Shown here piece by piece: positions 26,854-44,625 of a stretch of DNA of 46,257 bases; the first letter of the stretch is position 1, and every line of letters begins with the position of its first letter. The DNA comes from a virus: IMG/VR virus record IMGVR_UViG_3300045242_000039, positions 1-46,257 of that record; one strand, given 5' to 3'. A program made the translations under genes and the position numbers. The notes below the pieces were generated by a model that was given only the letters and a program-made list of their open reading frames with translations, was not told where the DNA came from and did not search any database.

Positions 26854-27767
26854 GTGCTCTGCTCCTCTCCAGCAGGCTGGCTCACATAGGTGGGCCGGAT
26901 GGCCACAATGCCATGGATCGGCCCGGTGTGCGAGATCCGCAGGTCACCGTCGATGGCGACGACGGTGGTGTCCGGCGCCACCAGGATGGTGCGGGTGGCG
27001 TGGCCGATGGAGTACTCCACGGCCAGCAGCACGGTCTGCTCAAGTGCCGCTGGTTGCGGCAGTTCCTCGTCAGAGATCGTCTTGAGGAACTCGGTCTTCG
27101 CCTCGGGCGAGACGAAGTGGATATCTTCGTCCGCGTCGATCTCGTCCTGCGCTGGGGTGGGGTCGCTATCAGTGATCCACTGGTAGCCGCAGTCCAAGCA
27201 TGTGCGCTTCTCGCGCTTGCCGCTACGGCTGTCGGGCGAACGCCAGTACGCCCTGGCGTTCCACGCTACGTGTTTGCATTCATCCGCACTGACCGTGGCT
27301 GCCGCCACCAGGGTCGTCCACTGGCAACCGCAGTCGTCGCACTGGCGACGCTGGCTCCAGCCATTGGACGCAGAAGCCGGGGAGCCGACACGGCTCCACG
27401 CCAAGTGAAGGCAGTCCGCGGTAGCGAAGTCCGTCATGGCCTTCTGGTACGCCTTGAACTCCCCGACCGAGGTGAACTGCTTCCCGCCCGCGTTGGCGTT
27501 GATGTACTCCAGCTCCTGGGCCGCAATCATCGCGGCCTGCTGCTTCTCCGGGTCGGCCCACTGGTGGCCGCACCAGTTGCAGATCTTGCGGGTCTTCAGC
27601 TCCGTGGTCCAGCGCCAGCTGGTATGCGGGCACTCAACCCACTGGGTGCAGTCCTGGCATTCGAAGCGGCCGTTGACATCCCGGTGGTGGGCCAGCTGCG
27701 CGTGGTCGCACTCATCGTCCGATGAGCTTGCGGAGTCCTTCGACTCCGTCTCTGACGTAGATCCCAT
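26850..27767 (-). CDS. Protein with four tandem zinc-ribbon-like units (305 aa)
   Basis: Four units share the layout CxH, a spacer of about 15-35 residues, then CxxC. The last three end in CGHQW, CGCQW and CGYQW. The CxH starts are ECDHAQLAH, ECPHTSW, DCLHLAW and ECKHVAW, near residues 19, 45, 118 and 160. Each could hold one zinc. The C-terminal third (residues 215-305) is a different, beta-rich domain. The start uses a GCAG-GGAGAGGA-CTGC hairpin and overlaps the upstream TOPRIM gene by 56 bases. Multi-ribbon proteins often bind nucleic acid or RNA polymerase. I know no family with this exact arrangement. Confidence 0.7.
   Translation of the reverse strand: MGSTSETESKDSASSSDDECDHAQLAHHRDVNGRFECQDCTQWVECPHTSWRWTTELKTRKICNWCGHQWADPEKQQAAMIAAQELEYINANAGGKQFTSVGEFKAYQKAMTDFATADCLHLAWSRVGSPASASNGWSQRRQCDDCGCQWTTLVAAATVSADECKHVAWNARAYWRSPDSRSGKREKRTCLDCGYQWITDSDPTPAQDEIDADEDIHFVSPEAKTEFLKTISDEELPQPAALEQTVLLAVEYSIGHATRTILVAPDTTVVAIDGDLRISHTGPIHGIVAIRPTYVSQPAGEEQST
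26859..26875 (-). promoter_or_regulatory. Start hairpin CTGCT-GGAGAGG-AGCAG (26853 gene)
   Basis: A perfect 5-bp stem with the 7-base loop GGAGAGG lies five bases before the ATG. It is inside the coding end of the four-ribbon gene, so the protein sequence and the RNA structure are both constrained. Confidence 0.7.
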
Positions 27768-28353
27768 TGCAGTCCTCTCCCTGCGGCAGTGTCACCTGCC
27801 GTGCTCGTACTTCCTTGATCAGGAAGGAGTTGAACTCCTTCCCGGCCTTGTCGCCGTCGGCGACGGCGAGCTTCTCGGGGAAGTCTTCGATCACCCGACC
27901 GAAGTGCTTCTTCCAGTTCTTCACCCCGCCGATGCCCACGGCCGGGAACCCGGCCGACGACAGCGTCAGGGCATCGAGCTCACCTTCGGTGATGCAGATG
28001 AACGGGCTGTCCTTGAACGAGTCGTTCACGTTGTAGAGGTTCCGGCCCCGGCCTGGCTCGGCCAGGTACTTGGGGCACCCCTCGTCCTTGCACACATGCG
28101 ACCGCAGGCAGCGGTACACAATGTTGACGACCCCGCCCCGGGTCAGATACGGGATGGTCAGCCTGCCGGTGAACTGCTCATGGCCCTGCCTAGGCCGCCG
28201 TACGACGCCCAGGCGGGCAGTAGCTGCGACCGCCGGACCGAAGCCCCGGGACAGCAGGTACTCCTGGGCGGTCGTATCCCCGCTTAGGTCCCTCTGGTAC
28301 TGCGTGACCGCCAGCTCGAAGAATGACTTCTGCTCGGGTGACGGCATGTCCAC
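27712..28353 (-). CDS. TOPRIM-domain primase subunit (213 aa)
   Basis: The central part shows a DnaG-type TOPRIM fold. The acidic motif is in FICITEGELDALTL near residue 120, and the second metal motif is in LAVADGDKAGKEF near residue 165. The N-terminal region (FTGRLTIPYLTRGGVVNIVYRCL) resembles the primase core before TOPRIM. The zinc-binding CHC2 domain lies in a separate upstream gene in another frame. GTG at 28353 has AGGGG eight bases upstream; TTG at 28359 and ATG at 28347 are alternatives. With the CHC2 gene it would make RNA primers for replication. Confidence 0.8.
   Translation of the reverse strand: MDMPSPEQKSFFELAVTQYQRDLSGDTTAQEYLLSRGFGPAVAATARLGVVRRPRQGHEQFTGRLTIPYLTRGGVVNIVYRCLRSHVCKDEGCPKYLAEPGRGRNLYNVNDSFKDSPFICITEGELDALTLSSAGFPAVGIGGVKNWKKHFGRVIEDFPEKLAVADGDKAGKEFNSFLIKEVRARQVTLPQGEDCNGIYVRDGVEGLRKLIGR
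27769..27784 (-). promoter_or_regulatory. Start hairpin GCAG-GGAGAGGA-CTGC (27767 gene)
   Basis: A perfect 4-bp stem presents the loop GGAGAGGA one base before the ATG. It lies inside the end of the TOPRIM coding sequence. Confidence 0.6.
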
Positions 28354-28615
28354 GGTCAAGCCCCTCGTGTAGTGCGATGAGAGTCAGGGCCGTGCCCTTC
28401 ATCGTGCAGGTGAAGCAGTGGAAGTAACCGCTGCTGCAGTGGATGACCGCCGACTTCGTGCGGTCCCCGTGGAACGGGCACAGGATGGACTGCCAGTCCC
28501 TGCCCTCGTCGTCCCCGTCCCACCCGTAGTACTTCAGGATGGGGACGAGGGGCCATGCCGTGCGATCAGCAGGCTGATCACCTTGGCTCCAGTGGCGAAT
28601 GGCATACGAACCCAC
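28190..28615 (-). CDS. CHC2 zinc-finger primase subunit (141 aa)
   Basis: The GTG at 28615 is preceded by GGGGAGG with four bases between, an excellent ribosome site, so it is chosen over an upstream ATG at 28672. The core is the zinc motif LCPFHGDRTKSAVIHC ... FHCFTC (residues about 40-67), as in DnaG N-termini that read the template. The remaining frame overlaps the TOPRIM gene by about 164 bases, reading RAEVILRAGGHAVPEG, which fits the tail of CHC2 domains. It therefore seems a true dual-frame overlap, though a sequencing frameshift or programmed frameshift cannot be excluded. Confidence 0.75.
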   Translation of the reverse strand: MGSYAIRHWSQGDQPADRTAWPLVPILKYYGWDGDDEGRDWQSILCPFHGDRTKSAVIHCSSGYFHCFTCTMKGTALTLIALHEGLDRGHAVTRAEVILRAGGHAVPEGPKRGYDRPGVPAVPGLRSGGRSYCPPGRRTAA

Positions 28616-28941
28616 GAGTCCTCCCCAAGTTCGGGCATGCCGAGCTGACCGATCGGCATCCATAGGTCCCACTGATCCACAGCCTTGTGGTCGATCCGGA
28701 CCACAAGCGCGCAGTACGGTTCACCGGCGTTGACCCGCTCGGTGAGCGTTTCCTGCTTCCACTTCGGGATCGCGTTGGAGCGATCCCCTTTCACTTCGAT
28801 GCAGAACAGGGGGACGTTGATCACGTCCCCCTTGTCCAGCGTCCCGGCGAGTGCTCGCCGTTCGGCCGTGGGCCACCACTGCTGCAGGTAGCGCACGGTC
28901 TTTCGTTCTGTCTCGGTTCCCCGAGCCTTTGCCTTGCTCAA
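28534..28941 (-). CDS. Holliday junction resolvase-like nuclease (135 aa)
   Basis: A TTG start at 28941 is inferred because it overlaps the stop of the preceding mini-gene. The upstream in-frame sequence is the shadow of that gene. The sequence SKAKARGTETERKTVRYLQQ, ERRALAGTLDKGDVINVP and FCIEVKGDRSNAIPKW has the E ... GD ... ExK order of PD-(D/E)XK resolvases of the Hjc type. Such enzymes cut four-way junctions formed in replication or recombination. Its 3' end overlaps the CHC2 gene by 82 bases. Confidence 0.7.
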   Translation of the reverse strand: MSKAKARGTETERKTVRYLQQWWPTAERRALAGTLDKGDVINVPLFCIEVKGDRSNAIPKWKQETLTERVNAGEPYCALVVRIDHKAVDQWDLWMPIGQLGMPELGEDSWVRMPFATGAKVISLLIARHGPSSPS

Positions 28942-29042
28942 CGAAGGTGCTCGAAGGCGACAAGCAGGAAGAACAGGATGAGGATGGAGCAGCAGGCGTA
29001 GCCGGTGGCCTTGGCTGCCTGCTTGACGTACCAACGGATCAT
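28938..29042 (-). CDS. Single-span membrane mini-protein (34 aa)
   Basis: ATG at 29042 has GGGAGC six bases upstream and overlaps the previous stop (ATGA). The sequence is a basic N-terminus (MIRWYVKQAAKATG) and one hydrophobic segment, YACCSILILFFLLVAFEHLR. Its own stop overlaps the TTG start of the resolvase gene. Exact coupling on both sides argues for a real gene. It is probably an inner-membrane peptide of unknown role. Confidence 0.65.
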   Translation of the reverse strand: MIRWYVKQAAKATGYACCSILILFFLLVAFEHLR

Positions 29043-29293
29043 TGAAGCTCCCTTGACGCCTTGATCTCGGACCACGTGGTGTGGTGATGGGCAATGTCCC
29101 TTATGGCCTGCCCTGCAAGGATGGTCTTCAGGCCTTCCGGTAGCCCTGGCAGTCTCGCGCAGTGCGCGCATGTGCGGAACCCCCAGGCGCCGCCGACGGG
29201 GCCCCAGTCGCCCAGCAGGTAGGGGTGGCCCCAGCGGTGGGGGTTGCGGTGATCACGCAGGATGCGGCGCTTCCAGCGCGTACGGGCGTTCAC
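29039..29293 (-). CDS. Hypothetical protein (84 aa)
   Basis: GTG at 29293 overlaps the upstream stop (GTGA), and the stop overlaps the next ATG (ATGA). The protein is basic at the N-terminus (TRWKRRILRDHRNPHRWG), has FRTCAHCARLPG with one CxxC, and a His-rich C-terminal part (DIAHHHTTW). One CxxC and histidines might bind zinc. No family is recognised. Confidence 0.55.
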   Translation of the reverse strand: MNARTRWKRRILRDHRNPHRWGHPYLLGDWGPVGGAWGFRTCAHCARLPGLPEGLKTILAGQAIRDIAHHHTTWSEIKASRELQ

Positions 29294-29604
29294 CTCTCCT
29301 GCTTCGGGCAGTAGCAGTGGTCATCCACGCACAGCCCGGTGTGCGGCAGCACCCGGGTGACCTCCAGCCGGTCGCGGGCCTCCCGCGCCTGCTTCACGGC
29401 GTCCAGGCGTAGCTGGAGCACCTTCTCGCTGAACTCTCCGAGGAACTCCAGCATGACGTCCCGAGGGATCGTCACCTCGTACACGTTGTTGCGGCGGGGC
29501 GCCTCCATGGCCACCACCCACGCCTCGTAGGCGCGGACGGTGAAGCTGCCGTTGCGGTCCTCGGTGATGGTCGGCTTACCTGGTCGTTCGGACTCCAAGT
29601 CCAT
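29290..29604 (-). CDS. Hypothetical protein (104 aa)
   Basis: The ATG at 29604 is chosen because the left-arm start motif GGAGAGG lies four bases upstream. The protein has a beta region (NGSFTVRAYEAWVVAMEAP, NVYEVTIPRDVMLEF) followed by a helix rich in Lys/Arg/Glu. It ends with a possible metal motif CVDDHCYCP. Function unknown. It lies between the helicase and resolvase genes in the replication block. Confidence 0.55.
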   Translation of the reverse strand: MDLESERPGKPTITEDRNGSFTVRAYEAWVVAMEAPRRNNVYEVTIPRDVMLEFLGEFSEKVLQLRLDAVKQAREARDRLEVTRVLPHTGLCVDDHCYCPKQER

Positions 29605-29794
29605 GCTCCCTCTCCATGTGCTTCTGTGCGCGCTTGAACGCGTCCACCTGAGTGGGGCGGATGTCGCCCCACCACCACATTGATGCCGTCCGTACGCCCC
29701 GGCCGTCGTCCTGTCCTGCCGCGTCGCACCCCCGGTGGTACCAGGCCCATCCCGTGCCACCGCGGTACACCCGGGCCTTCGTCACTTCCACCAT
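29576..29794 (-). CDS. Hypothetical protein (72 aa)
   Basis: The start lies inside the end of the helicase gene (13-base overlap). The sequence ARVYRGGTGWAWYHRGCDA and WGDIRPTQVDAFKRAQKHMEREH suggests a small compact alpha/beta domain rich in aromatics. It overlaps the next gene by 29 bases. I recall similar short phage proteins with a YRGG-W pattern but no function. Confidence 0.5.
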   Translation of the reverse strand: MVEVTKARVYRGGTGWAWYHRGCDAAGQDDGRGVRTASMWWWGDIRPTQVDAFKRAQKHMEREHGLGVRTTR

Positions 29795-30600
29795 TCCTCC
29801 CCGATCACAGCGCGGTCGCGCTGCGGGTTGTAGTCGAAGACCCGGCTGGACGCCGGGTCAATGCCCATCTGGAACGCCGTCTTGCCCGACGCATCGGAGG
29901 GTCCGTGACGGTTCTTCACCCCGGCAACCCACAGGCGCTCCTCGAAGTCCTTGCCCAGGGTCATGATGAGCGTCGGTGACGCTGACGCCTTGCCCATGAT
30001 GGACGCCCGGGACGGGCACGGATGCCCCGTCGTACCGTCCGAACAGTGATGTACCAGCAGCACCGACGCGTGGGTCTCGCGTGCCAGGTTCTTGGCTTCG
30101 CGGATGACGGTCCGCAGGGCGGACCACTCGTCGTTGCCCTCGTGGTGGACATCGCCAAGGATGTCGACCACCACCAGTTCCGGCCACTGGCCGTACCGTT
30201 CGCCGTAGGCGTACGTCTCATGCCAGATGTCGTCCAGCGACAGCGACGACATGAATTGCCACTGAAGGAAGTCGAACGGCTTCAGCAGTTCGGTGCAGCG
30301 CTTCGGGTCGGTGCGCAGCCACTCTTCGCACTCCTCGCTGGGGGTGCCGGTGGCGATGCCCAGTAGGCGCTTCGCGATGGTGACATCGTCGCTGTCCGTG
30401 CTGAACGCCAGGGTCGGGACCCGCATGTTGGCGAGCCCCGACAGCAGCACCATGGTCTTGAAGGTGCCAGCCACCCCGGCGATCATCTGGACGGACTGCT
30501 GCCGCAGCAGAAACCCCCGTGATCCCCAGGAGGGGAACATCGGGGGCAGGGGTGGGGGGGCGATGCTGCCCCTACTGACCAGGCGGCTCAGGGTTTGCAC
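29782..30600 (-). CDS. RecA/DnaB-type helicase ATPase (272 aa)
   Basis: Walker A is GVAGTFKT near residue 43 and a Walker B-like strand is ELVVVDILGD near residue 140. VLLVHHC near 185 is the next core strand. The layout matches the RecA-fold domain of replicative helicases or RepA-type helicases. GTG at 30600 is preferred because CGGAGG lies three bases upstream; GTG at 30624 is possible. It is probably the replicative helicase that works with the split primase. It lacks an N-terminal primase-binding domain of usual size. Confidence 0.75.
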   Translation of the reverse strand: MQTLSRLVSRGSIAPPPLPPMFPSWGSRGFLLRQQSVQMIAGVAGTFKTMVLLSGLANMRVPTLAFSTDSDDVTIAKRLLGIATGTPSEECEEWLRTDPKRCTELLKPFDFLQWQFMSSLSLDDIWHETYAYGERYGQWPELVVVDILGDVHHEGNDEWSALRTVIREAKNLARETHASVLLVHHCSDGTTGHPCPSRASIMGKASASPTLIMTLGKDFEERLWVAGVKNRHGPSDASGKTAFQMGIDPASSRVFDYNPQRDRAVIGEEWWK

Positions 30601-30820
30601 TGTCCTCCGTTCCCAGCGCCTCACGCAGGCGCTGGCGGTTGGCCTCCCACTGGTCCATGACTTCCTGGGCCTGTGCGTGCAGGCGGTGGGCGTTGGCGCC
30701 CCACCGGTGCCACATGGCCTTGCAGGTGTCGCACATGTAGAACAGGCCGCCGTCGTAGACGCCGCGGATCTCTACGAGGACGACCTTGCGGTCCTCACAG
30801 CACGGGGTCTCATCGCTCAT
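30572..30820 (-). CDS. Small zinc-binding-like protein (82 aa)
   Basis: Two cysteine clusters are present, PCCEDRK near residue 6 and MCDTCKAMWHRWG near residue 29, enough for one zinc. A long amphipathic helix follows (AHRLHAQAQEVMDQWEANRQRL). The gene overlaps the preceding gene by 11 bases and the helicase start by 29. It could be an adaptor for the helicase, by position only. Confidence 0.6.
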   Translation of the reverse strand: MSDETPCCEDRKVVLVEIRGVYDGGLFYMCDTCKAMWHRWGANAHRLHAQAQEVMDQWEANRQRLREALGTEDSANPEPPGQ

Positions 30821-31007
30821 CGCGGTACATGTCCTTCGTGGACTGGATGAACAGGTCCATCGTCAGCAGCCACGACGCAAGGACGTCGGCTGCTGCCCAC
30901 GACGCGGACACGTGGTGTCCGGAGATCACGGTGTGGATGGTGTCGAACAGCAGGAAGGTGGCCACGAAGGCCACCGCGAACACCAGCATGCCGGTGAACC
31001 TACGCAT
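30810..31007 (-). CDS. Two-span membrane protein (65 aa)
   Basis: The ATG at 31007 has AGGAGG seven bases upstream. The first membrane segment is MLVFAVAFVATFLLFDTI. A second, weaker one is AAADVLASWLLTMDLFI. The protein begins MRRFTG and ends KDMYRDER. It may alter the host membrane early in infection or be a cryptic holin-like protein. No family is recognised. Confidence 0.65.
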   Translation of the reverse strand: MRRFTGMLVFAVAFVATFLLFDTIHTVISGHHVSASWAAADVLASWLLTMDLFIQSTKDMYRDER

Positions 31008-31236
31008 CAGGATCCTCCTGGGGTCTCGGAACGAGGATGTCGAACGACCACCGGTCGTCACCGTCTTCCTTGAAGACGACCGTCACTTGGTGGTCCCAGT
31101 TCAGTGCGTGCAGGGTTTCAAGCATTTCGGCCGACGGGCCGTCGAACGTGCCCGCCGTGGCGTCGAACATCCCCAGGGTGCCGGGAACCCGGACAGCCTC
31201 ACGGCTGTCCGGGAACACGACATAGGCGGTCGCCAT
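31000..31236 (-). CDS. Hypothetical protein (78 aa)
   Basis: The start overlaps the stop of the 43-aa gene. The protein begins MATAYVVFPDSREAVRVPG and contains LNWDHQVTVVFKEDGDDRWSF. It is a compact alpha/beta candidate. No cysteine or membrane segment is seen. Function unknown. Confidence 0.6.
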   Translation of the reverse strand: MATAYVVFPDSREAVRVPGTLGMFDATAGTFDGPSAEMLETLHALNWDHQVTVVFKEDGDDRWSFDILVPRPQEDPDA

Positions 31237-31367
31237 CAGATGGACGACCCGAACGCTGCGACGTCCAGCGTGGTGACCACCGGCTTCGCCGGGAGCCTCT
31301 TCGCCTTGGCGAGGTCCTTCAGGGGGACGCGCTTGCGCGGTGGTGCCTTGAGTACGGGCGGTGCCAT
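31236..31367 (-). CDS. Basic mini-protein (43 aa)
   Basis: The ATG has AGGAGG three to four bases upstream. The sequence is Pro/Lys/Arg-rich (VLKAPPRKRVPLKDLAKAKR) and ends VVTTLDVAAFGSSI. Its charge suggests binding to nucleic acid or to an acidic protein. The strong ribosome site and the ATGA-type coupling to the next gene support it. It is too short to assign. Confidence 0.65.
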   Translation of the reverse strand: MAPPVLKAPPRKRVPLKDLAKAKRLPAKPVVTTLDVAAFGSSI

Positions 31368-31375
31368 GTCTCCTC

Positions 31376-32089
31376 CTATGCGGGTTGCGGGTTGTACTGC
31401 TGGAACCCACCGACAACGTCACCATGGATCCAGTAGTCACCGCCACCGGCCCACGCAACCTTGCCGCGCAGGGCTTGCGCGTTCTGGTTCCGGAAGTCCT
31501 TGAACTGGTCCTTGGCCGCGAACGGCACGTTGATCTTGAACACCGACGGCCACTGCGGTCGGGGCTTGGGCCCCTGCTGGCCACCAGCACCGCCTTGCGG
31601 CTGGCCGCCGCCCCACCCCTGCTGCGGGGCCGGTGCCCCCGCGTTCTGCCATGCCGCCGGGGCGGTACCTGGCTGCCCGGCTGCGCCATTGGGCGGCCCC
31701 CACTGGGGGGCATTGGCTGCCTGGTTCTGGAAGCCCTGCTGCACGGCGTTCTGCAGCGGCACCACGGGGGTGACCGGACCCAGTCCGGCACCCACATTCG
31801 CGTGAGCCTTCGCCGTCTGGTGGTGTGCGGCGATGTTCGCCCACACCCCGTTCATCTCCAGCTCGGTGAACGCCTGGTTCAACTCCTGCGCCGACTCGGC
31901 GCGGATCACCAGGAACGGCGCCTTGTCCGGGGCGATGGAGAGCACGTACTTGTGGTCGGTCAGCTGCTTGCTGACCGCCACCGCCGTGCCCTGCGGCACG
32001 GACGGGATCTCTGTGCCGCCCTCGGCCTCCGTCCATCCGCCCCAGGCGTCCTCGGCGGGCTCCGGCAGGGCAGTGGCTTCGTCGGTCAT
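31376..32089 (-). CDS. Two-domain protein with Gln/Gly/Pro linker, possible ssDNA-binding role (237 aa)
   Basis: An N-terminal domain (residues 30-100, KYVLSIAPDKAPFLVIRAES, LNQAFTELEMNGVWANI) is joined by a long low-complexity linker (residues 110-175) to a C-terminal beta domain. That domain has VFKINVPFAAKDQFKDFRNQN and KVAWAGGGDYWIHGD. The position between replication genes and the disordered linker would suit a single-strand DNA-binding or loader protein, but no OB-fold motif is clear. The function is speculative. Confidence 0.5.
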   Translation of the reverse strand: MTDEATALPEPAEDAWGGWTEAEGGTEIPSVPQGTAVAVSKQLTDHKYVLSIAPDKAPFLVIRAESAQELNQAFTELEMNGVWANIAAHHQTAKAHANVGAGLGPVTPVVPLQNAVQQGFQNQAANAPQWGPPNGAAGQPGTAPAAWQNAGAPAPQQGWGGGQPQGGAGGQQGPKPRPQWPSVFKINVPFAAKDQFKDFRNQNAQALRGKVAWAGGGDYWIHGDVVGGFQQYNPQPA

Positions 32090-32096
32090 GTGACTC

Positions 32097-32255
32097 CTAG
32101 GCGATGTTCAGGCACCGCTTGCACGGGCGCTGACGGTGATGGACATGGCACGAGTCATCCCTTGCGGGCTCCTCGCGCGGCTGGGGTCCGTTGTAGAGCG
32201 CCACCTTACGAGCCGCCTCACGGCTCGCCTTGCGGATGATGCTTCGGGTCCTCAT
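32097..32255 (-). CDS. Basic Cys/His mini-protein (52 aa)
   Basis: The ATG lies in an ATGA overlap with the 15-aa ORF; GGAG lies upstream. The N-terminal half is highly basic (TRSIIRKASREAARKVALY). The C-terminal half has SCHVHHRQRPCKRC, which could bind zinc with two or three Cys and His residues. It is one of the many zinc-binding-like small proteins here. Function unknown. Confidence 0.6.
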   Translation of the reverse strand: MRTRSIIRKASREAARKVALYNGPQPREEPARDDSCHVHHRQRPCKRCLNIA

Positions 32256-32980: not shown

Positions 32981-33033
32981 GGTCCCTCTCCAACTTGTAC
33001 GCTCAGCAGGAACCCCTTCGAAGGAGGCCCTGT

Positions 33034-35502: not shown

Positions 35503-35510
35503 GGCCTCTC

Positions 35511-36446: not shown

Positions 36447-36458
36447 GGGGTGTGCTCC

Positions 36459-39141: not shown

Positions 39142-39254
39142 GATGGGTGGATCCTCTCCAAGGTGTGCGGCAGGGACTGTCCCCCTGCAGCTGGCCGTAA
39201 GGCCAACACGTGGCCCGACCTCCCCCAGGTCGGGCCACACTGTTGATCCGGCGG
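39142..39254 (-). promoter_or_regulatory. Leader of the AAA+ gene with strong hairpin
   Basis: GTGGCCCGACCT at 39210-39221 pairs with AGGTCGGGCCAC at 39227-39238 around a 5-base loop, a 12-bp stem. GGCC-GTAA-GGCC lies next to it (39193-39204). The start motif GGAGAGG is at 39153-39159. The strong hairpin is probably a terminator or attenuator after the 66-aa gene. It follows the same order as other left-arm spacers: hairpin, short stem, start motif. Confidence 0.7.
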
Positions 39255-39455
39255 TCAGGGCCCGTACCTGGTCATCTGGCGCTCCAGGTAGTCATCCAGC
39301 GCGTCAGTGCTGACGCGGTAGGACTTGCCCACGGTGATGTAGTCCATCTCGCCTCGGCGAATCAGCCGGTAGATGCTCATCTTGGACACCCGCAGCCATG
39401 CTGCGAGTTCTTCCACGGTGTAGAACTCCGCATCGGGATGGTGCGTCAGTGGCAT
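39255..39455 (-). CDS. Excisionase/MerR-like helix-turn-helix protein (66 aa)
   Basis: The sequence FYTVEELAAWLRVSKMSIYR, LIRRGEMDYITVGKSYRV and ALDDYLERQ matches the winged helix-turn-helix family called excisionase-like or HTH_17. These bind DNA as small monomers or cooperatively. No integrase gene was seen, so it is more likely a transcription regulator than an excisionase. It is followed by the strong hairpin at 39210. Confidence 0.85.
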   Translation of the reverse strand: MPLTHHPDAEFYTVEELAAWLRVSKMSIYRLIRRGEMDYITVGKSYRVSTDALDDYLERQMTRYGP

Positions 39456-39457
39456 AC

Positions 39458-39721
39458 CTAGAGCACTCCTGTCAGGCAGTCGGGAACGAGGCGCTGTGCC
39501 TCGATCAGGTGAGCGCCGACCCAGTCGGCCGGGCCGGGCCCGTGAGGGCCCACAAGGGCCTCCAGGGCCCCGTTGTGGGCCTCTCTGACCTGTGCGATGT
39601 AGCCGATGAACACGGGGACGTGCCCGGCGGCGTTGCGCTTGACGCGCATCACGGTGACGACGTCACCGACATGCAGACATGTGCCGTACATGTCCCGCAT
39701 GGGGTTCGTGTCGTTGCTCAC
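39458..39721 (-). CDS. Hypothetical protein (87 aa)
   Basis: GTG at 39721 overlaps the upstream stop (GTGA). The sequence GTCLHVGDVVTVMRVKRNAAG, HVPVFIGYIAQVREAHNGAL suggests a small SH3-like beta-barrel. The C-terminal part is helical. No family is recognised. Confidence 0.6.
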   Translation of the reverse strand: MSNDTNPMRDMYGTCLHVGDVVTVMRVKRNAAGHVPVFIGYIAQVREAHNGALEALVGPHGPGPADWVGAHLIEAQRLVPDCLTGVL

Positions 39722-40044
39722 CGGATCTTCCAGTCCCGGTCGAAGTCGGCACGCTTGCGTACGATCACCGCGTCCTCCTGGACTAGGACGACGTAGCTTT
39801 TGTCGATCATGTAGATCGTCCAGTCAGCCTCGAAAGTGGCAAAGCCGCCTGCGGTGTAAGCATGGTCGCCCGTGCGGGGCGGCGCAGGCTGCAGGGCCGT
39901 CTCTTCGGCGAGGTCGACGCCGCCGAAGGCGGCGTAGCGCACGAGGTACCACACGCCCTTACGGTCGGCATGGGACTCCGGTCCCGAGTCGATAGTCACG
40001 GCGCAGCCGCGGTAGTGGGCCCGCTGGCCTTTCTTGAACGTCAT
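39718..40044 (-). CDS. Hypothetical protein (108 aa)
   Basis: The ATG at 40044 is chosen because GGAGAGG lies six bases upstream; a GTG five codons earlier overlaps that motif. The sequence FKKGQRAHYRGCAVTIDSG, WYLVRYAAFGGVDLAEE suggests a small beta-barrel similar in style to its neighbour. A second region, SYVVLVQEDAVIVRKR, follows. Function unknown. Confidence 0.55.
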   Translation of the reverse strand: MTFKKGQRAHYRGCAVTIDSGPESHADRKGVWYLVRYAAFGGVDLAEETALQPAPPRTGDHAYTAGGFATFEADWTIYMIDKSYVVLVQEDAVIVRKRADFDRDWKIR

Positions 40045-40058
40045 GTCTGTCCTCTCCA

Positions 40059-40073
40059 CGGGGTGAAACCCCG
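40059..40073 (-). promoter_or_regulatory. Hairpin next to the 40044 start motif
   Basis: CGGGG at 40059-40063 pairs with CCCCG at 40069-40073 around TGAAA. It lies immediately upstream of GGAGAGG on the minus strand. It is probably a terminator or attenuator of the LuxR-type gene upstream. Confidence 0.55.
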
Positions 40074-40089
40074 GTGTTCCCGGCTACAT

Positions 40090-40341
40090 TCACACGTCCC
40101 GTGGGCGGTCGCCCACGATGATGTCGTCCACGGTCACCAGACCGGCGGCCACGGCCAAGGCCGTGGCGTGGTACCGGTTCCTGGCCTGCATCTTGAAGCG
40201 CACGTTCGCGAACAGGGACTGCACGCTCATGCGCTTGATGCCCAGCGCTTCACCGATCTGCTCATTGGTCGCCCCACGGGCGCACAGTCGCAGCAGTTCA
40301 CGTTCCCTCGGCGTCAGCCGCGGGACGCGGTAGTCACTCAT
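40090..40341 (-). CDS. LuxR-type helix-turn-helix protein (83 aa)
   Basis: ATG at 40341 has AAGGAGA upstream. The domain LTPRERELLRLCARGATNEQ, IGEALGIKRMSVQSLFANVRF and KMQARNRYHA is a full LuxR/NarL C-terminal HTH. It stands alone without a receiver or ligand domain, as in GerE-like single-domain regulators. It lies just downstream of the tRNA-like genes and probably regulates phage or host transcription. Confidence 0.85.
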   Translation of the reverse strand: MSDYRVPRLTPRERELLRLCARGATNEQIGEALGIKRMSVQSLFANVRFKMQARNRYHATALAVAAGLVTVDDIIVGDRPRDV

Positions 40342-40364
40342 TGCTCTCCTTTGCGGACATGAGC

Positions 40365-40396
40365 GCACCCCGTGCGCTTTCGGACACACGGGGTGC
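40365..40396 (-). terminator. Hairpin between tRNA-like gene and LuxR-type gene
   Basis: GCACCCCGTG at 40365-40374 pairs with CACGGGGTGC at 40387-40396. An alternative 7-bp hairpin, AGCGCAC with GTGCGCT (40362-40378), shares its bases. The two are mutually exclusive, which is the form of a switch or attenuator, though a plain terminator is equally possible. Confidence 0.6.
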
Positions 40397-40398
40397 AG

Positions 40399-40470
40399 TG
40401 GACGGACGGGGAATCGAACCCCGCATTCGCAGGCCAGCGCGAAGCTGATCCCCTTATCCCAACCTGGTCC
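40399..40470 (-). tRNA. tRNA-like gene with atypical acceptor and anticodon arms
   Basis: The T arm is perfect: CGGGG-TTCGATT-CCCCG at 40423-40407. A D stem (GTTG/CAGC) and an anticodon stem (TTCGC/GCGAA) are visible, but the anticodon loop appears to have 8 bases (GCTGGCCT), which would place GGC or GCC as anticodon. The acceptor 3' strand TCCGTCC pairs poorly with the adjacent 5' bases. It pairs better (6 of 7) with GGACGGC 27 bases further upstream at 40497-40491. Identity is therefore uncertain; it may be a degenerate tRNA. Confidence 0.5.
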
Positions 40471-40510
40471 ATGCACTGATCGGGTACATGGCCGTCCTTG
40501 TTGTACTGCG

Positions 40511-40578
40511 CACACGCGGCAGGATTCGAACCTGCAACCGGATGGCCGTCCGTGTTCAGCCACTTGAACTACGCGTGC
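40511..40578 (-). tRNA. tRNA-like gene, short anticodon arm
   Basis: The acceptor (GCACGCG with CGCGTGT, one G-U pair), D arm (GTTC/GAAC) and T arm (GCAGG-TTCGAAT-CCTGC) are all good. The anticodon arm seems only a 4-bp stem (CGGA/TCCG) with a 6-base loop CGGCCA, making the gene 68 bases long. If functional it would present GGC or GCC. No 3' CCA is encoded. It could be degenerate or a tRNA-like processing signal. Confidence 0.55.
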
Positions 40579-40618
40579 GGATGATGCCCCCGCCACATCA
40601 CTAACGGGGACATCGGTC

Positions 40619-40861
40619 TCAACTGTCGCGCCGGGCGGCGAAGATCGCCATCGCCTCCTCGTGGGACACGCCGCACCCGGCGTACAGGTCGGCCCAGCTG
40701 GTGGCCTTGCCCTCTTCGCTGGCGGCGAAGATCATGGTCTCGTCGCCACGGTCGAGAGTGAAAGCACGACTGACCACGAAGAACTCCTGAGTCTTGTCGT
40801 CCTGCACCAGCCACACCTCCCCGACCCAGCCTGCGAGGTCACGGACCTTGATCAATGCCAT
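40619..40861 (-). CDS. Hypothetical protein (80 aa)
   Basis: The ATG has GAGAGGAG upstream. The sequence RDLAGWVGEVWLVQDDKTQE, FFVVSRAFTLDRGDETMIF suggests an alpha/beta mini-domain, ending in a helix EEAMAIFAARRD. No family is recognised. It lies upstream of the tRNA-like pair. Confidence 0.55.
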   Translation of the reverse strand: MALIKVRDLAGWVGEVWLVQDDKTQEFFVVSRAFTLDRGDETMIFAASEEGKATSWADLYAGCGVSHEEAMAIFAARRDS

Positions 40862-40873
40862 GGGACACTCCTC

Positions 40874-41092
40874 TCACGTACGTGAGCGGTACTCACGTAC
40901 AGCGTTGCGGGCATACACGAAGCCGTAGGCTGCGCTGCCCAGGATGAACGGGTACTGGCGGGTGTCGACTGCGTAGGCGATCCACAGGGTCTGTGTGCAC
41001 AGCCCGAACACCCACCCGTACCACTTGTGCTTACCGGCCAGCCACATGCCGATCAGGCCGAACGGCGCGAGGATGTACGACCACGCGCCCAT
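40874..41092 (-). CDS. Membrane protein (72 aa)
   Basis: Three hydrophobic stretches can be seen: ILAPFGLIGMWLAG, VFGLCTQTLWIAYAV and FILGSAAYGFVYA. The motif GKHKWYGWVFGL and the Trp/Tyr-rich loops resemble small PnuC-like or four-helix membrane proteins found in actinophages. The ATG overlaps the preceding stop (TAATG). Function unknown. Confidence 0.65.
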   Translation of the reverse strand: MGAWSYILAPFGLIGMWLAGKHKWYGWVFGLCTQTLWIAYAVDTRQYPFILGSAAYGFVYARNAVREYRSRT

Positions 41093-41709
41093 TACGGGTG
41101 ACTCCGGGAGTGCCAGCGGCCGTCCGCGTCGTACGGGGTGGACTCCATGGAGATGTTCTCGCCACGATCGGCCAACTGGCCGTAGTAGCGCGCCTGAATG
41201 GTGGTCTGCTTGACCACCTCAAGGCGACGTGCAATTGAGTCCAGTTCCGCGAAGCGCTCCTGCATCTCGGCCACCACATGGGGCGAGACCGGCTGGGAAA
41301 CGGCCATGGTGATGACCCCTGGCCGGGGGGACGCCGTGGCTCCGGGAACTCGGGCGTAGAGATCCCGGATCACCTGGGCGGTCATCTCGTCCGCTGTGGC
41401 CCGCTCTGCGGGCGTCTCCGGCAGTCGCTGGAATGATGCGTGCCAGAGTGCCTTCGCGGCCTTACGGGCCGCGTAGGACGACTCGTAGCCCTGGAATTCG
41501 CCCACCGTGGACACGGTGCCCTCGTCGGTGATGTGACGCACCGTGTACAGGCGCGGGGAGCGCCAGTCTTTGCGCTCCGAGGTGGTGAAGTACGCACCAT
41601 CGTCGGTGGCGTAGAACGTGCCGATCCGGCCGCTGAAGAACCGGAGTGCATCCTTGGCGAACCAGGCGGGCGCGAGTCGCGTCGCCTGTGTTCTGTTGTG
41701 TACGGGCAT
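41092..41709 (-). CDS. Hypothetical protein (205 aa)
   Basis: The ATG at 41709 is set by the start hairpin at 41713-41731. The N-terminal half contains WFAKDALRFFSGRIGTFYAT, then YTVRHITDEGTVSTVGEFQG. The C-terminal half is helical and Ala-rich, with MAVSQPVSPHVVAEMQERFAE. No family is recognised. It is among the first-transcribed genes of the arm, which in phages often act against host functions. Confidence 0.55.
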   Translation of the reverse strand: MPVHNRTQATRLAPAWFAKDALRFFSGRIGTFYATDDGAYFTTSERKDWRSPRLYTVRHITDEGTVSTVGEFQGYESSYAARKAAKALWHASFQRLPETPAERATADEMTAQVIRDLYARVPGATASPRPGVITMAVSQPVSPHVVAEMQERFAELDSIARRLEVVKQTTIQARYYGQLADRGENISMESTPYDADGRWHSRSHP

Positions 41710-41712
41710 GAT

Positions 41713-41731
41713 CTGTTCCTCTCCGAAACAG
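41713..41731 (-). promoter_or_regulatory. Start hairpin with GGAGA loop (41709 gene)
   Basis: On the minus strand CTGTTTC pairs with GGAACAG, seven pairs including one G-U, leaving GGAGA in the loop. The ATG begins four bases later. It belongs to the family of left-arm start hairpins in which the loop is constant and the stem varies. Confidence 0.7.
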
Positions 41732-41818
41732 TGGGGTCCCTGTGACTCCACGGAAACGCACACCCCCGCAAGGATGTGCGCAACCGGCAGCATCACAGGA
41801 GAGGTTGGTTAGCTGCAT

Positions 41819-42031
41819 TCAGTTGGTCAAGGACCCGTGCGGGATGACCTCTCCCACACCGGTGATGATGCACGTGACGCACACGTCGTGCGTCTGGGCT
41901 GCGCCATGGATGTACTGCGTGAGCCAGCCTCCGGCAACGTCAGGATCTGTGGTGTCCACCAGGAAGGCGGGCAGCCACAGGGCCTCACGGTCGGCAGGGT
42001 CGCGCAGTTCGATCACAAGGGTGCTGCACAT
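41819..42031 (-). CDS. Hypothetical protein (70 aa)
   Basis: The start follows the hairpin at 42032-42055. The sequence CSTLVIELRDPADREALWLPAF in part, then GWLTQYIHGAAQTHDVCVTC, suggests an alpha/beta fold. Its termination region at 41732-41818 holds no gene. Function unknown. Confidence 0.55.
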   Translation of the reverse strand: MCSTLVIELRDPADREALWLPAFLVDTTDPDVAGGWLTQYIHGAAQTHDVCVTCIITGVGEVIPHGSLTN

Positions 42032-42055
42032 GATGATCCCTCTCCAAGGTCATCG
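42032..42055 (-). promoter_or_regulatory. Start hairpin around GGAGAG (42031 gene)
   Basis: GATGA/TCATC plus CC/GG form a 7-bp stem with one bulged A. The loop is TTGGAGAG. The stem reaches the base next to the ATG. It is a member of the start-hairpin family. Confidence 0.65.
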
Positions 42056-42079
42056 GGGTACTGGCCTGAGTGGCCAACA

Positions 42080-42104
42080 GGGCACCCGTGCGTGACGGGT
42101 GCCC
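42080..42104 (-). terminator. Intercistronic 10-bp hairpin
   Basis: GGGCACCCGT at 42080-42089 pairs with ACGGGTGCCC at 42095-42104. Next to it TGGCC/GGCCA (42062-42076) forms a second hairpin, and CATCGGG/CCCGATG (42051-42107) can close both. It lies between two small left-arm genes. Confidence 0.65.
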
Positions 42105-42113
42105 GATGGTGAC

Positions 42114-42386
42114 TCAGAGCTGCGTAACGCTGTACACGAGGCCGAGGTCGTGGTCCCCGTCGTAGCCGGGGGTGGTGCCGTAGACGACACCCGTGCCCGG
42201 GGAGCCGTCGGCGAACAGACGCAGCGTGGACTGCGTCTCGCTCCACTCCGGGATGTCCGCGTCTTCCTCGGCAGCCTGGCGCTCCTGCGCCAGCCACTCC
42301 CACGCCTCGCGCGCCGTGTCGAACTCCGGCGGGTCGTCATCCATCGGCAGGTAGCCGGGAACGTTGATCGTTGCTACGTATGTCAT
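42114..42386 (-). CDS. Hypothetical protein (90 aa)
   Basis: The sequence MTYVATINVPGYLPMDDDPPEF is followed by an acidic helix (AREAWEWLAQERQAAEEDAD) and a strand region (QSTLRLFADGSPGTGVVYG). It is strongly acidic overall, which for early phage proteins can indicate DNA mimicry, though nothing here proves that. The start uses the 42388-42410 hairpin. Confidence 0.55.
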   Translation of the reverse strand: MTYVATINVPGYLPMDDDPPEFDTAREAWEWLAQERQAAEEDADIPEWSETQSTLRLFADGSPGTGVVYGTTPGYDGDHDLGLVYSVTQL

Positions 42387-42387
42387 G

Positions 42388-42410
42388 AGTGATCCTCTCC
42401 AAGATCGACT
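42388..42410 (-). promoter_or_regulatory. Start hairpin around GGAGAG (42386 gene)
   Basis: AGT(C)GATC pairs with GATCACT, seven pairs with one bulged C, around TTGGAGAG. The ATG follows two bases after the stem. Confidence 0.65.
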
Positions 42411-42687
42411 AGAGCGGGGTGGGGCGGAAGACTTCGCGCTTGCGCAGGTCGAACCTGGAGTCCCAATGACCGATCTTCTTCAGCCATACGGGCTGCTTGC
42501 GCAGCTTGTAGTACGTGAGAACGGTGCAGCTCAGGCCGTACGAGCGATAGGTGAGCGCCCAGCTGACGGCGGTACTGGGCGACGACGCCTTGACGTTCCA
42601 CGTGTCCACGTGGCACACGCCGTTGCTCCTGTAGTTGCGAAGCACCACACGGTAGATCGAGTGGTTGCCGTTGTCAGACAAAATCAT
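42409..42687 (-). CDS. Hypothetical protein (92 aa)
   Basis: The protein is basic and aromatic-rich: SIYRVVLRNYRSNGVCHVDT, WALTYRSYGLSCTVLTYYKL and WDSRFDLRKREVFRP. It has a beta-rich look with a basic C-terminus. Function unknown. It starts from the hairpin at 42688-42710. Confidence 0.55.
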   Translation of the reverse strand: MILSDNGNHSIYRVVLRNYRSNGVCHVDTWNVKASSPSTAVSWALTYRSYGLSCTVLTYYKLRKQPVWLKKIGHWDSRFDLRKREVFRPTPL

Positions 42688-42710
42688 GGTGATCCTCTCC
42701 GATCATCACC
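42688..42710 (-). promoter_or_regulatory. Start hairpin around GGAGAG (42687 gene)
   Basis: GGTGA and TC on the 5' side pair with GA and TCACC on the 3' side, seven pairs with a 3-base bulge, around GGAGAG. The stem abuts the ATG. Confidence 0.65.
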
Positions 42711-42727
42711 GGCCGAGCGGCCGAGTC

Positions 42728-42755
42728 AGCGCACCCCTGGTGGGGGATGCGCTGA
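42728..42755 (-). terminator. Intercistronic hairpin after the 42760 gene
   Basis: CAGCGCA at 42728-42734 pairs with TGCGCTG at 42749-42755, with CCCC/GGGG further in. The sequence is a diverged copy of the stronger hairpin at 43458-43486, so the spacers appear homologous. Confidence 0.55.
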
Positions 42756-42759
42756 ACTG

Positions 42760-42960
42760 CTACTCGGTGCAGTCGTACATGTCGTACTCCCGCGCGGCTA
42801 CTACCTCCTCAGCCTCGCACTCCAGGCTGATGGAGAACTCCGGACCGCAGTTGCCCTCACAGGCACTGCACAGTTCGGGCTTTGTGATGTCACTGGAGAT
42901 GCTGATCTCCATGCAGTCCCTGCATGCGCACGGGGTGTAGCCGCTCTCTGGGGTGCTCAT
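42760..42960 (-). CDS. Cysteine-rich acidic protein (66 aa)
   Basis: The ATG at 42960 overlaps the upstream stop (ATGA). The protein has CACRDC near residue 11 and LCSACEGNC near residue 31, then SLECEAEE and DMYDCTE. Eight cysteines suggest one or two zinc sites. It is acidic, unlike most nucleic-acid-binding ribbons. Function unknown. Confidence 0.6.
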   Translation of the reverse strand: MSTPESGYTPCACRDCMEISISSDITKPELCSACEGNCGPEFSISLECEAEEVVAAREYDMYDCTE

Positions 42961-43178
42961 GACTGCACCTCCGGGACGAATGCAGGGGTGAACGCGTAGC
43001 AGACGCGCCACTCGATCGTGCCTGCCTTACTGTCGATGCTCGCGCCGCTGGATATCTTCGTCAGGAACGTGCCGTTGATTTCCCGCTTGGCCTGCGCACG
43101 GTTCTCACGGTCGGCCTTGGCGTCCGTGCTGAAGTGCGACAGGGGGATGGTGATCTTCACCCACTGCAGTTCCCTCAT
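42957..43178 (-). CDS. Hypothetical protein (73 aa)
   Basis: The start and stop overlap neighbouring genes by 4 bases each. The sequence ELQWVKITIPLSHFSTDAKA, NGTFLTKISSGASIDSKAG and IEWRVCYAFTPAF suggests a beta-sandwich-like mini-protein. Function unknown. Confidence 0.55.
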   Translation of the reverse strand: MRELQWVKITIPLSHFSTDAKADRENRAQAKREINGTFLTKISSGASIDSKAGTIEWRVCYAFTPAFVPEVQS

Positions 43179-43411
43179 GACTGCACCGCCGGGGCGGCAA
43201 GGCTGGCAGCCGCCGCGTGAGCGTCGGCCAGCATCATCGGGTGCATGGCGGTGTACGTGACCCGCTCACTGGAACCGTGGTACGCCACGACCATGTAGCC
43301 CGCGCTGTCCGCCCGCAGGCGGACCCCGAAGCCACGCGAACCGGTGAACACCCACCGGTTCGCGATGAAGGACATGCCGGAGCCGTCCCCCGTGGGGTAG
43401 TTGTCTCGCAT
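43175..43411 (-). CDS. Hypothetical protein (78 aa)
   Basis: The ATG at 43411 lies within the 3' arm of the start hairpin at 43410-43438. The sequence GMSFIANRWVFTGSRGFGVR, LRADSAGYMVVAYHGSSERV suggests a beta fold, then an Ala-rich helix. Function unknown. Confidence 0.55.
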   Translation of the reverse strand: MRDNYPTGDGSGMSFIANRWVFTGSRGFGVRLRADSAGYMVVAYHGSSERVTYTAMHPMMLADAHAAAASLAAPAVQS

Positions 43412-43438
43412 GATCAGTTCCTCTCCAAGAGAGATCAT
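43410..43438 (-). promoter_or_regulatory. Start hairpin including the start codon (43411 gene)
   Basis: ATGATC pairs with GATCAT, the latter including two bases of the ATG. Inside, CTCTC can pair with GAGAG and so hide the ribosome site. This member differs from the others in that the start motif itself would be base-paired. Confidence 0.65.
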
Positions 43439-43457
43439 GTCCGGCTGAGTAGCCGAG

Positions 43458-43486
43458 CCAGCGCACCCCCAGTGGGGGTGCGCTGG
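43458..43486 (-). terminator. Strong 13-bp intercistronic hairpin
   Basis: CCAGCGCACCCCC at 43458-43470 pairs without mismatch with the 13 bases at 43474-43486, around a 3-base loop. A second small hairpin, GGCT/AGCC, lies at 43443-43454. No T-run follows. It should act as terminator, attenuator or RNA-stability element. Confidence 0.75.
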
Positions 43487-43494
43487 ACTGTCAC

Positions 43495-43674
43495 TCAGTC
43501 GACTTCGCCACGCGACCACTGGTTGAGCACGGTAGCGACGGTGGCCGCCTGGTGCTTCTGGGCGTAGGCCGCGATGACCGTTGTCCGCAGCGTCTCACCG
43601 GTCACCCGGTCGACCGTCCTACGCACGACGGTGAACTTGTCCTGTACCTCGTACTTGCTTACGGTGCTGCTCAT
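43495..43674 (-). CDS. Hypothetical protein (59 aa)
   Basis: The ATG at 43674 overlaps the upstream stop (ATGA). The protein begins SSTVSKYEVQDKFTVVRRTV and has a helical C-terminus (AQKHQAATVATVLNQW). It is basic. The strong hairpin follows nine bases after the stop. Function unknown. Confidence 0.55.
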   Translation of the reverse strand: MSSTVSKYEVQDKFTVVRRTVDRVTGETLRTTVIAAYAQKHQAATVATVLNQWSRGEVD

Positions 43675-44054
43675 GCCGACACCTCCGCATCCCGCTTGAG
43701 AGTGACGGTGGACAGCTTGATGCGGTCCGTCGCCTCGCGGCGCAAGTGCTTGATCACACTCGCGTTGAACTTGGCCGTCGTGATCGGGGTGACGTTGGTA
43801 CGCAGCCCGATGTGGGCCCGCACGTCGGCCGGGGTGACCTTGATCCCCCCGTACACGTGCCACGCCATCCGCTCCCGGGTGAAGAACTCCTCCCAGTTGG
43901 CGTCCGTGATCTCACCCATGCCGACCGTGATGGTCGACCAGATGAGGTGCTCCGTGATGTCGTTGAGGGTCCTGTACGTGCTGCCCTCGTACTCCGGAAC
44001 CCAGCACACGGACTCATGGTCCGCGATCCTGGTCAGATCCCAGTTCAAGCTCAT
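43671..44054 (-). CDS. Hypothetical protein (127 aa)
   Basis: The start uses the hairpin at 44058-44073. The sequence SLNWDLTRIADHESVCWVPE, TLNDITEHLIWSTITVGMGE and NWEEFFTRERMAWHVYGGIK, then a basic C-terminal helix, suggests a compact helical protein. I recall similar small early proteins in actinophages with no known role. Confidence 0.55.
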   Translation of the reverse strand: MSLNWDLTRIADHESVCWVPEYEGSTYRTLNDITEHLIWSTITVGMGEITDANWEEFFTRERMAWHVYGGIKVTPADVRAHIGLRTNVTPITTAKFNASVIKHLRREATDRIKLSTVTLKRDAEVSA

Positions 44055-44057
44055 GGT

Positions 44058-44073
44058 GTGTCCTCTCCGACAC
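44058..44073 (-). promoter_or_regulatory. Start hairpin GTGTC-GGAGAG-GACAC (44054 gene)
   Basis: This is the simplest member of the family: a perfect 5-bp stem with the six-base loop GGAGAG, three bases before the ATG. Confidence 0.75.
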
Positions 44074-44096
44074 GGGACTGAGTTGCCCCAGTGAAC

Positions 44097-44116
44097 GCAC
44101 GGGCCGAAACCCGTGC
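44097..44116 (-). terminator. Intercistronic 7-bp hairpin
   Basis: GCACGGG at 44097-44103 pairs with CCCGTGC at 44110-44116 around CCGAAA. It lies after the 22-aa ORF and before the start hairpin of the next gene. Confidence 0.6.
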
Positions 44117-44129
44117 ACTCAAGTGGTAC

Positions 44130-44198
44130 TCAGGTGTTCCACACGACGTACAGCACGATCCCCACGAACAGGATCGTGTAGAGCCGCTGGCGGCTCAT
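44130..44198 (-). CDS. Hydrophobic mini-protein (22 aa)
   Basis: The ATG overlaps the upstream stop (ATGA). The whole protein is a short basic start (MSRQRLYT) and one hydrophobic segment (ILFVGIVLYVVWNT). This is long enough to sit in a membrane. Tight coupling supports translation, but such a small ORF could be chance. Confidence 0.5.
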   Translation of the reverse strand: MSRQRLYTILFVGIVLYVVWNT

Positions 44199-44599
44199 GC
44201 CGCCCGGGCCGACCACACGTACTCACGGACCCACGCCCGGGGGGCGATGAACACGGCGTACCGTGTCCAGCTGTCCCCCCGGTGCTCACCGCACGCGGTG
44301 AAGCCGAACAGGCGGTCGGTGCGGGCATCCGCACCCATCCACCGCCGTGCCCCGTTGGGGCACCCGTTGACCTCGCACTTACGGGCGAGGTCAACCACGG
44401 GGTTGACCGGAAACCACTTGTCCCGGTGCAGGGTGCAGCACCGGTCCTCCCACGCACGGCCTTCGGCCGTGTGGTTGCGGGACGACAGCTTGGTGATGAC
44501 GTACACAGCGGGCGTGTAGCACCAGTCGCAGTCGGTTTTGCGCAGGTTGAGCGACTGCAGCCATGTCATGCCGTAGCCGTCCATCATCTTGATGCCCAT
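44195..44599 (-). CDS. Cys/His-rich protein, first gene of the left arm (134 aa)
   Basis: It has CDWCYTP near residue 24, then DRCCTLHRDKW near 53, KCEVNGCPNGARR near 75 and FTACGEHRGD near 100. Together they could hold two zinc ions. As the first gene it should be expressed earliest and may act on host transcription or regulate the arm. The start uses the hairpin at 44599-44625. No known family is recognised. Confidence 0.65.
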   Translation of the reverse strand: MGIKMMDGYGMTWLQSLNLRKTDCDWCYTPAVYVITKLSSRNHTAEGRAWEDRCCTLHRDKWFPVNPVVDLARKCEVNGCPNGARRWMGADARTDRLFGFTACGEHRGDSWTRYAVFIAPRAWVREYVWSARAA

Positions 44600-44625
44600 G
44601 ATCAGTCCTCTCCAGAACCTGATCA
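44599..44625 (-). promoter_or_regulatory. Start hairpin TGATCAG/CTGATCA (first left-arm gene)
   Basis: A 7-bp stem encloses a 13-base loop with GGAGAGG; inside, TTC/GGA can pair further and leave UGGAGA exposed. One stem base is the T complementary to the A of the ATG. Both arms contain the palindrome TGATCA, so a protein could also bind the DNA here. Confidence 0.65.

Follow-up and report, generated by a model that had tools for sequence, protein, structure and literature searches.

The viral record IMGVR_UViG_3300045242_000039 (IMG/VR), a near-complete phage genome of 46,257 base pairs (bp) with 65% G+C, is analysed here at its full length and referred to as the window. Terminase, portal and other structural genes lie on its plus strand, and the replication genes together with small early genes occupy the minus strand from ~26.5 to 44.6 kb. 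We show that, at the front of this early region, the ribosome-binding site (RBS) is presented in a small hairpin whose loop, GGAGAG, remains constant while the stem changes from gene to gene with its two arms still matching. The initial annotation of the window had suggested a selected RNA structure over these starts. This is now strongly supported by exchanges of arms between sites, by 11 further genomes and a held-out prophage, and by orthologous leaders in which the arms have been replaced and pair again.

Pairing was judged against a null in which 5' and 3' arms were exchanged between sites of one genome, instead of against shuffled sequence; this is the right null because composition, the Shine-Dalgarno sequence (SD) and any shared words are all kept. 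The arms comprised the 14 nucleotides (nt) upstream and the 12 nt downstream of GGAGAG, and gene starts were assigned by rule, not taken from curated annotation. The permutation replaced a covariance model, since the loop preceding GGAGAG varies in length (0 to 5 nt) and an unguided alignment would misplace the arms. In the window, the sites' own arms paired better than swapped ones (p = 0.001, z -3.2, 14 sites), and stems of at least 4 bp were present at 8 of 15 sites compared with 3.0 expected (p = 0.0012). The same test was significant in 12 of 12 genomes of the clade that includes the window (z -2.2 to -4.5), and a prophage of S. composti, held out from the test set-up, gave z -2.6 (p 0.003). 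When 139 early starts from the 12 genomes were pooled, stems of at least 5 bp were found at 51 sites, against 20.8 after within-genome swaps; the genomes are partly related, so that the sites are not wholly independent, but kinship does not affect swaps made within a genome. None of 2000 swaps reached 51, the maximum being 33. The arms contained GATC at 47 of the 139 sites, and the remaining 92, with GATC in neither arm, still formed 19 stems against 8.2 by swap.

The 51 stems comprised 44 distinct sequences, with GC, CG, AU and UA all used at each of the five pair positions. As the stem letters vary freely yet in matching pairs, it is the shape and not the sequence that evolution has kept. 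Sliding the assumed loop along the leader gave a sharp peak of pairing only at offset 0, that is at GGAGAG itself (0.35 versus 0.10 swapped), with background levels 3 nt to either side; pairing at GGAGAG thus exceeded that at other left-arm positions, the comparison on which the initial annotation had staked its proposal. In these genomes, the arm-swap test gave no excess for early-strand SDs of other kinds or, with the sole exception of one relative, G007 (9 sites), for late-strand GGAG starts; in the stretch retrieved from G007, most of the late strand probably runs antisense to early genes. Some GGAGAG stretches away from assigned starts, in G008 and G001, were nominally significant and may belong to short or GTG-started genes. 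The base just before GGAGAG was A in 38 cases, T in 30, C in 13 and G in 13.

Orthologous leaders show true compensatory change, with arms that were replaced and nevertheless pair. Two phages whose proteins are 88% identical carry CAG/CTG in one and CTG/CAG in the other; a pair at 49% identity has CCCG/CGGG and TCCG/CGGA, and a pair at 48% has CATGATCA/TGATCATG and CCGTT/GACGG. Ahead of the gene that begins at 41,708 of the window stands CTGTT(T)/GAACAG, and ahead of its orthologue in G001, GTGTC/GACAC. When the 5' arm of one leader was combined with the 3' arm of its orthologous counterpart, the stem was weakened or lost in most pairs; the core stem was unchanged in two pairs (G007/L019, and G007/G024 at 62%). 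Most of the hairpin-led genes of the window had no homologue in any fetched relative and few or no family matches; the leader persists in spite of turnover among the genes it precedes. The arms GTGTC/GACAC and the RBS are identical at 44058-44073 of the window and in G001 (L081, ~3,031-3,046). The genes downstream of the two are non-homologous, which looks like a cassette-wise shuffling of leaders and genes.

The window phage is sister to the Beephvirinae. Its terminase is 83% identical to that of an uncultured phage (L001), 58-67% identical to those of phages from Streptomyces genomes and metagenomes, and 55-56% identical to those of the named Beephvirinae FlowerPower, Immanuel3 and WRightOn; given these identities, the host is most likely a Streptomyces. 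The terminase query retrieved these relatives, whereas the AAA ATPase used as query among viral contigs returned no close ones, and a search of a phage library with 19 kb of window DNA gave no match. In the terminase tree, all 12 hairpin genomes fell inside one 15-member clade (support 100/100), whose sister clade holds the named isolates. The arm-swap test revealed no excess pairing in that sister clade, including Immanuel3, FlowerPower and WRightOn, although GGAGAG is kept at early genes throughout it and is as constant there as in the hairpin clade. The hairpin is therefore an addition to a conserved early RBS. The spacer between SD and AUG averaged 7.6 nt in the hairpin clade and 4.1 nt in its sister, a difference expected because the 3' arm needs room; the idea that the stem compensates for a longer spacer by shortening the SD-AUG distance fits these lengths as well and cannot be separated here from clamping of the start.

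Three members of the 15-member clade depart from the pattern, namely G006, the mixed G017 and one fragment without usable sites. G006 retains GGAGAG but pairs the SD directly, with CTACTCCGAACGGAG or near copies in five leaders, and an SD that is itself paired (CTCC-GAAC-GGAG) could represent an alternative structure on orthologous genes. Along 9,503-11,341 of its contig L092, CTACTCCGAAC or a near copy (CTACTCCGACA, CTACTCCGAAT) stands immediately before GGAGAG in five leaders. Position in the operon also matters. Within 5 kb of the first hairpin gene, 49% of sites had stems of at least 5 bp, compared with 18% after swapping, while farther down there was no excess (4% versus 4%), and each phage has about 6-10 unrelated genes that share the hairpin.

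This distribution bears on the hairpins that the initial annotation had listed in the window. All nine pairs of arms are present in the sequence where it placed them. Taken as one set, they divide into seven between 41,713 and 44,625, which form a solid block (every one of the 7 GGAGAG starts at 41.7-44.6 kb has a hairpin), and two, at 26,859 and 27,769, which are at chance level and probably are chance, because relatives show no excess that far down the operon. About six more GGAGAG starts of the window (40,349; 40,057; 39,159; 35,511; 32,991; 29,615) have no such hairpin. The accompanying claim that starts of the left arm carry GGAGAGG and those of the right arm AGGAGG holds as a preference, not as a rule: GGAGAGG was counted at 15 starts on the minus (early) strand and one on the plus strand, and AGGAGG was at a start in 7 of its 10 plus-strand and 5 of its 14 minus-strand occurrences. 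GGAGAGG is also more frequent in the window than expected by chance (20 versus 9.0).

Folding predictions describe a structured RBS in which the SD would be displayed while the spacer and the AUG are held. In the hairpin leaders, GGAG had a predicted unpaired probability of 0.93 (median; mean 0.78). Elsewhere in these genomes, starts with GGAG gave 0.33-0.37 (late ones, 0.36). Replacing the 5' arm of a hairpin leader by that of another site lowered the mean from 0.78 to 0.55. The spacer was predicted to be unpaired with a probability of 0.27 (comparison sets, 0.39-0.41) and the AUG with 0.40 (0.47-0.51), and in 24 of 74 leaders the stem took in part of the start codon. With GGAGAG held unpaired, the local stem had a modest median stability of -7.3 kcal/mol. 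The 16S tail located in a host genome ends in ...GGATCACCTCCTTTCT, and GGAG can therefore pair with the anti-SD, while the following AG adds no pairing.

We interpret the element as a cis-acting translation-initiation hairpin in promoter-proximal early-gene leaders, on whose loop the ribosome docks before the stem melts, and assign this reading a probability of about 0.52. The 5' leader would fold with GGAGAG, containing the four-base SD GGAG, as an open apical loop, and the spacer, plus part of the AUG in about a third of cases, would serve as the 3' arm of a stem of 4-10 bp. The anti-SD of the 30S subunit would capture the exposed GGAG first, and the subunit would then melt the modest stem so that the AUG is placed. 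Such an arrangement might protect the SD from burial by neighbouring G+C-rich RNA and, with initiation contingent on melting of the clamp, would offer a common, tunable step across the early genes. Stems would be free to drift in sequence because only shape and loop matter, and this drift would in addition keep the leaders from sharing long direct repeats. Display of the SD and clamping of the AUG come from the computed folds; we infer formation of the hairpin in vivo and the order of docking and melting.

Several observations weigh against this interpretation. The constancy of GGAGAG exceeds what an SD requires, a hint that the loop has another reader. The sister clade, lacking the hairpin, expresses the same class of genes through an ordinary SD with an unpaired probability of 0.40; since this SD is ordinary and G006 pairs its own, exposure of the SD is not a general need. 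Moreover, the fold probabilities of the hairpin set come from sites chosen for having arms, for which the arm-swap comparison is the fairer one, and the difference in AUG exposure from arm-swapped leaders was weak (p 0.08).

The reader hinted at by the loop leads to another explanation, tentative and on the doubtful side in our view, in which the hairpins are operators. A phage or host RNA-binding protein or nuclease would read GGAGAG, with a stem required but of any sequence, and early translation would be switched as a regulon, in the manner of CsrA/RsmE, T4 RegA or T4 RegB. Such a protein classically leaves variable stems under a loop whose constant part is longer than the SD pairing. One hairpin is common to some 6-10 unrelated genes per phage, and the two bases after GGAG are conserved though unpaired with the 16S tail; T4 supplies a precedent in RegB, which cuts GGAG in the SDs of early genes (PMC3014915). 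However, relatives without the hairpin keep GGAGAG equally constant, and no gene family was found in all hairpin genomes and solely there, with no window gene common to all of them and absent elsewhere. The CsrA-type regulator raised by the initial annotation receives no support: PF02599 matched none of 11 phage records and none of four Streptomyces host genomes, and the control search matched three of 14 known genomes (E. coli, B. subtilis and T. maritima). RegB (PF10715) was likewise missing from the 11 hairpin-clade records and three further relatives, with T4 as positive control (E 1e-69). These absences, together with the unstructured GGAGAG of the sister clade, lower the odds of a trans-acting reader. 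Also on the doubtful side is the more specific proposal of a phage-wide early regulon in Streptomyces phages, in which the loop would be bound and read by a translation factor or nuclease that is undiscovered and distinct from CsrA, and which unrelated genes would join through a leader with any self-complementary stem.

The hairpin and its upstream companions might be mainly an mRNA processing or stability element, with long intercistronic leaders being cut and 5' hairpins shielding the cistrons. The SD hairpins do follow terminator-like and short hairpins within the same 60-100 nt leaders, and the sister clade retains a hairpin 5-10 nt upstream of GGAGAG, but processing would leave two features unaccounted for, the invariable use of the SD as the loop and a stem that finishes at or within the AUG, and we regard it as quite unlikely. 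It is very unlikely that the inverted repeats are DNA rather than RNA elements, that is, operator half-sites such as TGATCA words for a DNA-binding protein. The frequency of GATC in the arms would suit such sites, as would the departures from pairing inside stems, which were G-U and A-C in equal number (14 versus 14), wobble pairs thus giving no strand signal. A DNA reader needs a fixed sequence, however, and this explanation is largely refuted by the diversity of the stems with all pair types in use, by the pairing that persists without GATC and by a loop that is the sense-strand SD beside the AUG; sites centred on CTCTCC showed only a small excess (0.21 versus 0.14). It is scarcely credible that G+C-rich leaders simply pair by chance around an SD they have in common. 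Arms of different sites do pair somewhat, as seen in swap means above zero, and two hairpins of the original nine have the look of chance, but the arm-swap, loop-offset and orthologue tests contradict and refute this explanation.

Table 1. Hairpins around GGAGAG at early starts of the window, and short companion hairpins (H2) upstream of them
Feature	Position	Strand	Remark
SD-loop hairpin TGATCAG / CTGATCA	44599..44625	minus	before gene 44195-44599; stem includes A of start codon
SD-loop hairpin GTGTC-GGAGAG-GACAC	44058..44073	minus	before gene 43671-44054
SD-loop hairpin CATGATC / GATCATG	43409..43439	minus	gene start 43411; AUG paired; CTCTC/GGAGAG pairing a possible alternative
SD-loop hairpin GGTGATGATC / GATCACC	42688..42710	minus	before gene 42409-42687
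SD-loop hairpin AGTCGATCTT / GATCACT	42388..42410	minus	before gene 42114-42386
SD-loop hairpin GATGACC / GGATCATC	42032..42054	minus	before gene 41819-42031
SD-loop hairpin CTGTTTC / GAACAG	41713..41731	minus	before gene starting 41708
GCAG / CTGC around GGAGAG	27769..27784	minus	weak; possibly chance
CTGCT / AGCAG around GGAGAG	26859..26875	minus	weak; possibly chance
H2 AGCCC-ATCAA-GGGCT	44632..44646	minus	upstream of SD hairpin
H2 GGGGC-AACTCA-GTCCC	44074..44089	minus	upstream of SD hairpin
H2 TCGGCT-ACTC-AGCCGG	43441..43456	minus	long terminator-like hairpin precedes H2
H2 TGGCC-ACTCA-GGCCA	42062..42076	minus	upstream of SD hairpin

The companion hairpins recur beyond the window. Leaders on its minus strand at 41,700-44,700 and on the contigs L081, L084, L091 and L112 have a long terminator-like hairpin and a short H2 upstream of the SD hairpin, the loops of H2 including ACTCA, ACTC, ATCAA and TTAC. 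In several relatives, the long upstream hairpin keeps the loop YGGCAY over differing stems, with 3-4 copies on flush stems of at least 6 bp, compared with 0.1-0.4 expected (G002, G005, G007, G016, L019). On the early strand of the sister clade (L121, L122, L123 and other hairpin-less relatives), a variable-stem hairpin stands ~5-10 nt before a constant RBS, CAAGGGAGAGAACATG. Its loops include TCAC, GCTA, ACTC, ACTA, GTTC and ATCACA, a hairpin score of at least 10 was reached by 76% of leaders (19% when shuffled), and 73 of 101 5' arms were distinct. Similar leaders precede consecutive small genes in the Gordonia phage Fryberger (L130, 36,200-40,600, minus strand), a phage of another genus, with differing stems (GGTTC/GAACC, CGCTTC/GAAGCG and TGGTC/GACCA) and the loops AACACA, ACTCA, AACTCA and AACTAG, followed by a constant GAGAGAGGAAAGAACATG.

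Elsewhere in the window, a tRNA gene on the minus strand at 40511-40578 scored above the Rfam cut-off (38.4 bits) and was missed by ARAGORN; a second tRNA-like stretch follows at ~40,400-40,490. The last ~1.5 kb (44,700-46,257) is apparently non-coding and dense in perfect inverted repeats with variable stems and the recurring loops CTACTAG and TTCAG/CTGAA, and in a circular form of the record it would lie between the early operon and that of the terminase.

The leaders amount to a natural experiment in the selection of RNA structure, in which one loop and one shape have been kept over dozens of unrelated early leaders. The stems covary almost freely, both inside individual genomes and over a deep clade, and this is stronger proof of structure than is available for most conserved phage leaders. 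Whether an RBS that exposes the SD and holds the AUG is a built-in initiation step or the operator of a regulator can now be tested. The element is relevant to unexplained start-associated repeats in other actinobacteriophages and would supply ready-made insulated ribosome-binding sites for G+C-rich hosts.

No described family matching the GGAGAG hairpin was found in the open-access literature searched, which does not prove its absence, and Rfam covariance models run over 26,000-46,257 of the window gave no match at the leaders, only a tRNA passing the cut-off. Among described elements, the start-associated sequence (SAS/ESAS) of cluster K mycobacteriophages comes nearest; this repeat contains the SD, has one orientation and stands within a few bases 5' of the starts of many non-structural genes (PMC3203893). 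It shows an outer GGG...CCC symmetry, about half of the SAS genes also have an upstream inverted repeat, and no function was assigned to it (Pope et al. 2011; PMC3203893). Proximity to early or non-structural starts and a single orientation are common to both, the hairpin being confined to the early strand with a mean spacer of 7.6 nt. However, SAS is a fixed 13-mer, GGGATAGGAGCCC, and its authors found scant evidence that the ESAS repeats pair as RNA (PMC3203893); the copies in TM4 are exact or nearly so. The leaders described here do not conform to that 13-bp sequence, their fixed part being the loop and their stems being mostly distinct (44 of 51) and covarying, and the two elements have no common sequence beyond GGAG. 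Targets of CsrA, RsmA and RsmE also place the GGA of the SD in a hairpin loop over the RBS across a regulon, as is seen here, but in the present case neither phage nor host has CsrA. T4 RegB/S1 and RegA resemble the present system in using the GGAG SDs of early phage genes, found here too, as a common control point. Without S1, RegB needs an unpaired GGA, the fourth G being partly constrained (PMC3014915). What defines the sites of RegB/S1 and RegA is the sequence on the 3' side of GGAG or an unstructured RNA rich in A+U, as opposed to hairpins with variable stems, and no member of the RegB family was found here. RBS hairpin and standby models, represented by tisB, share with our interpretation a structured start and docking before unfolding. 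In tisB, the single-stranded landing site lies ~100 nt upstream of a sequestered RBS (PMC7708055), whereas the landing site proposed here would be the RBS hairpin's own loop, repeated over many genes.

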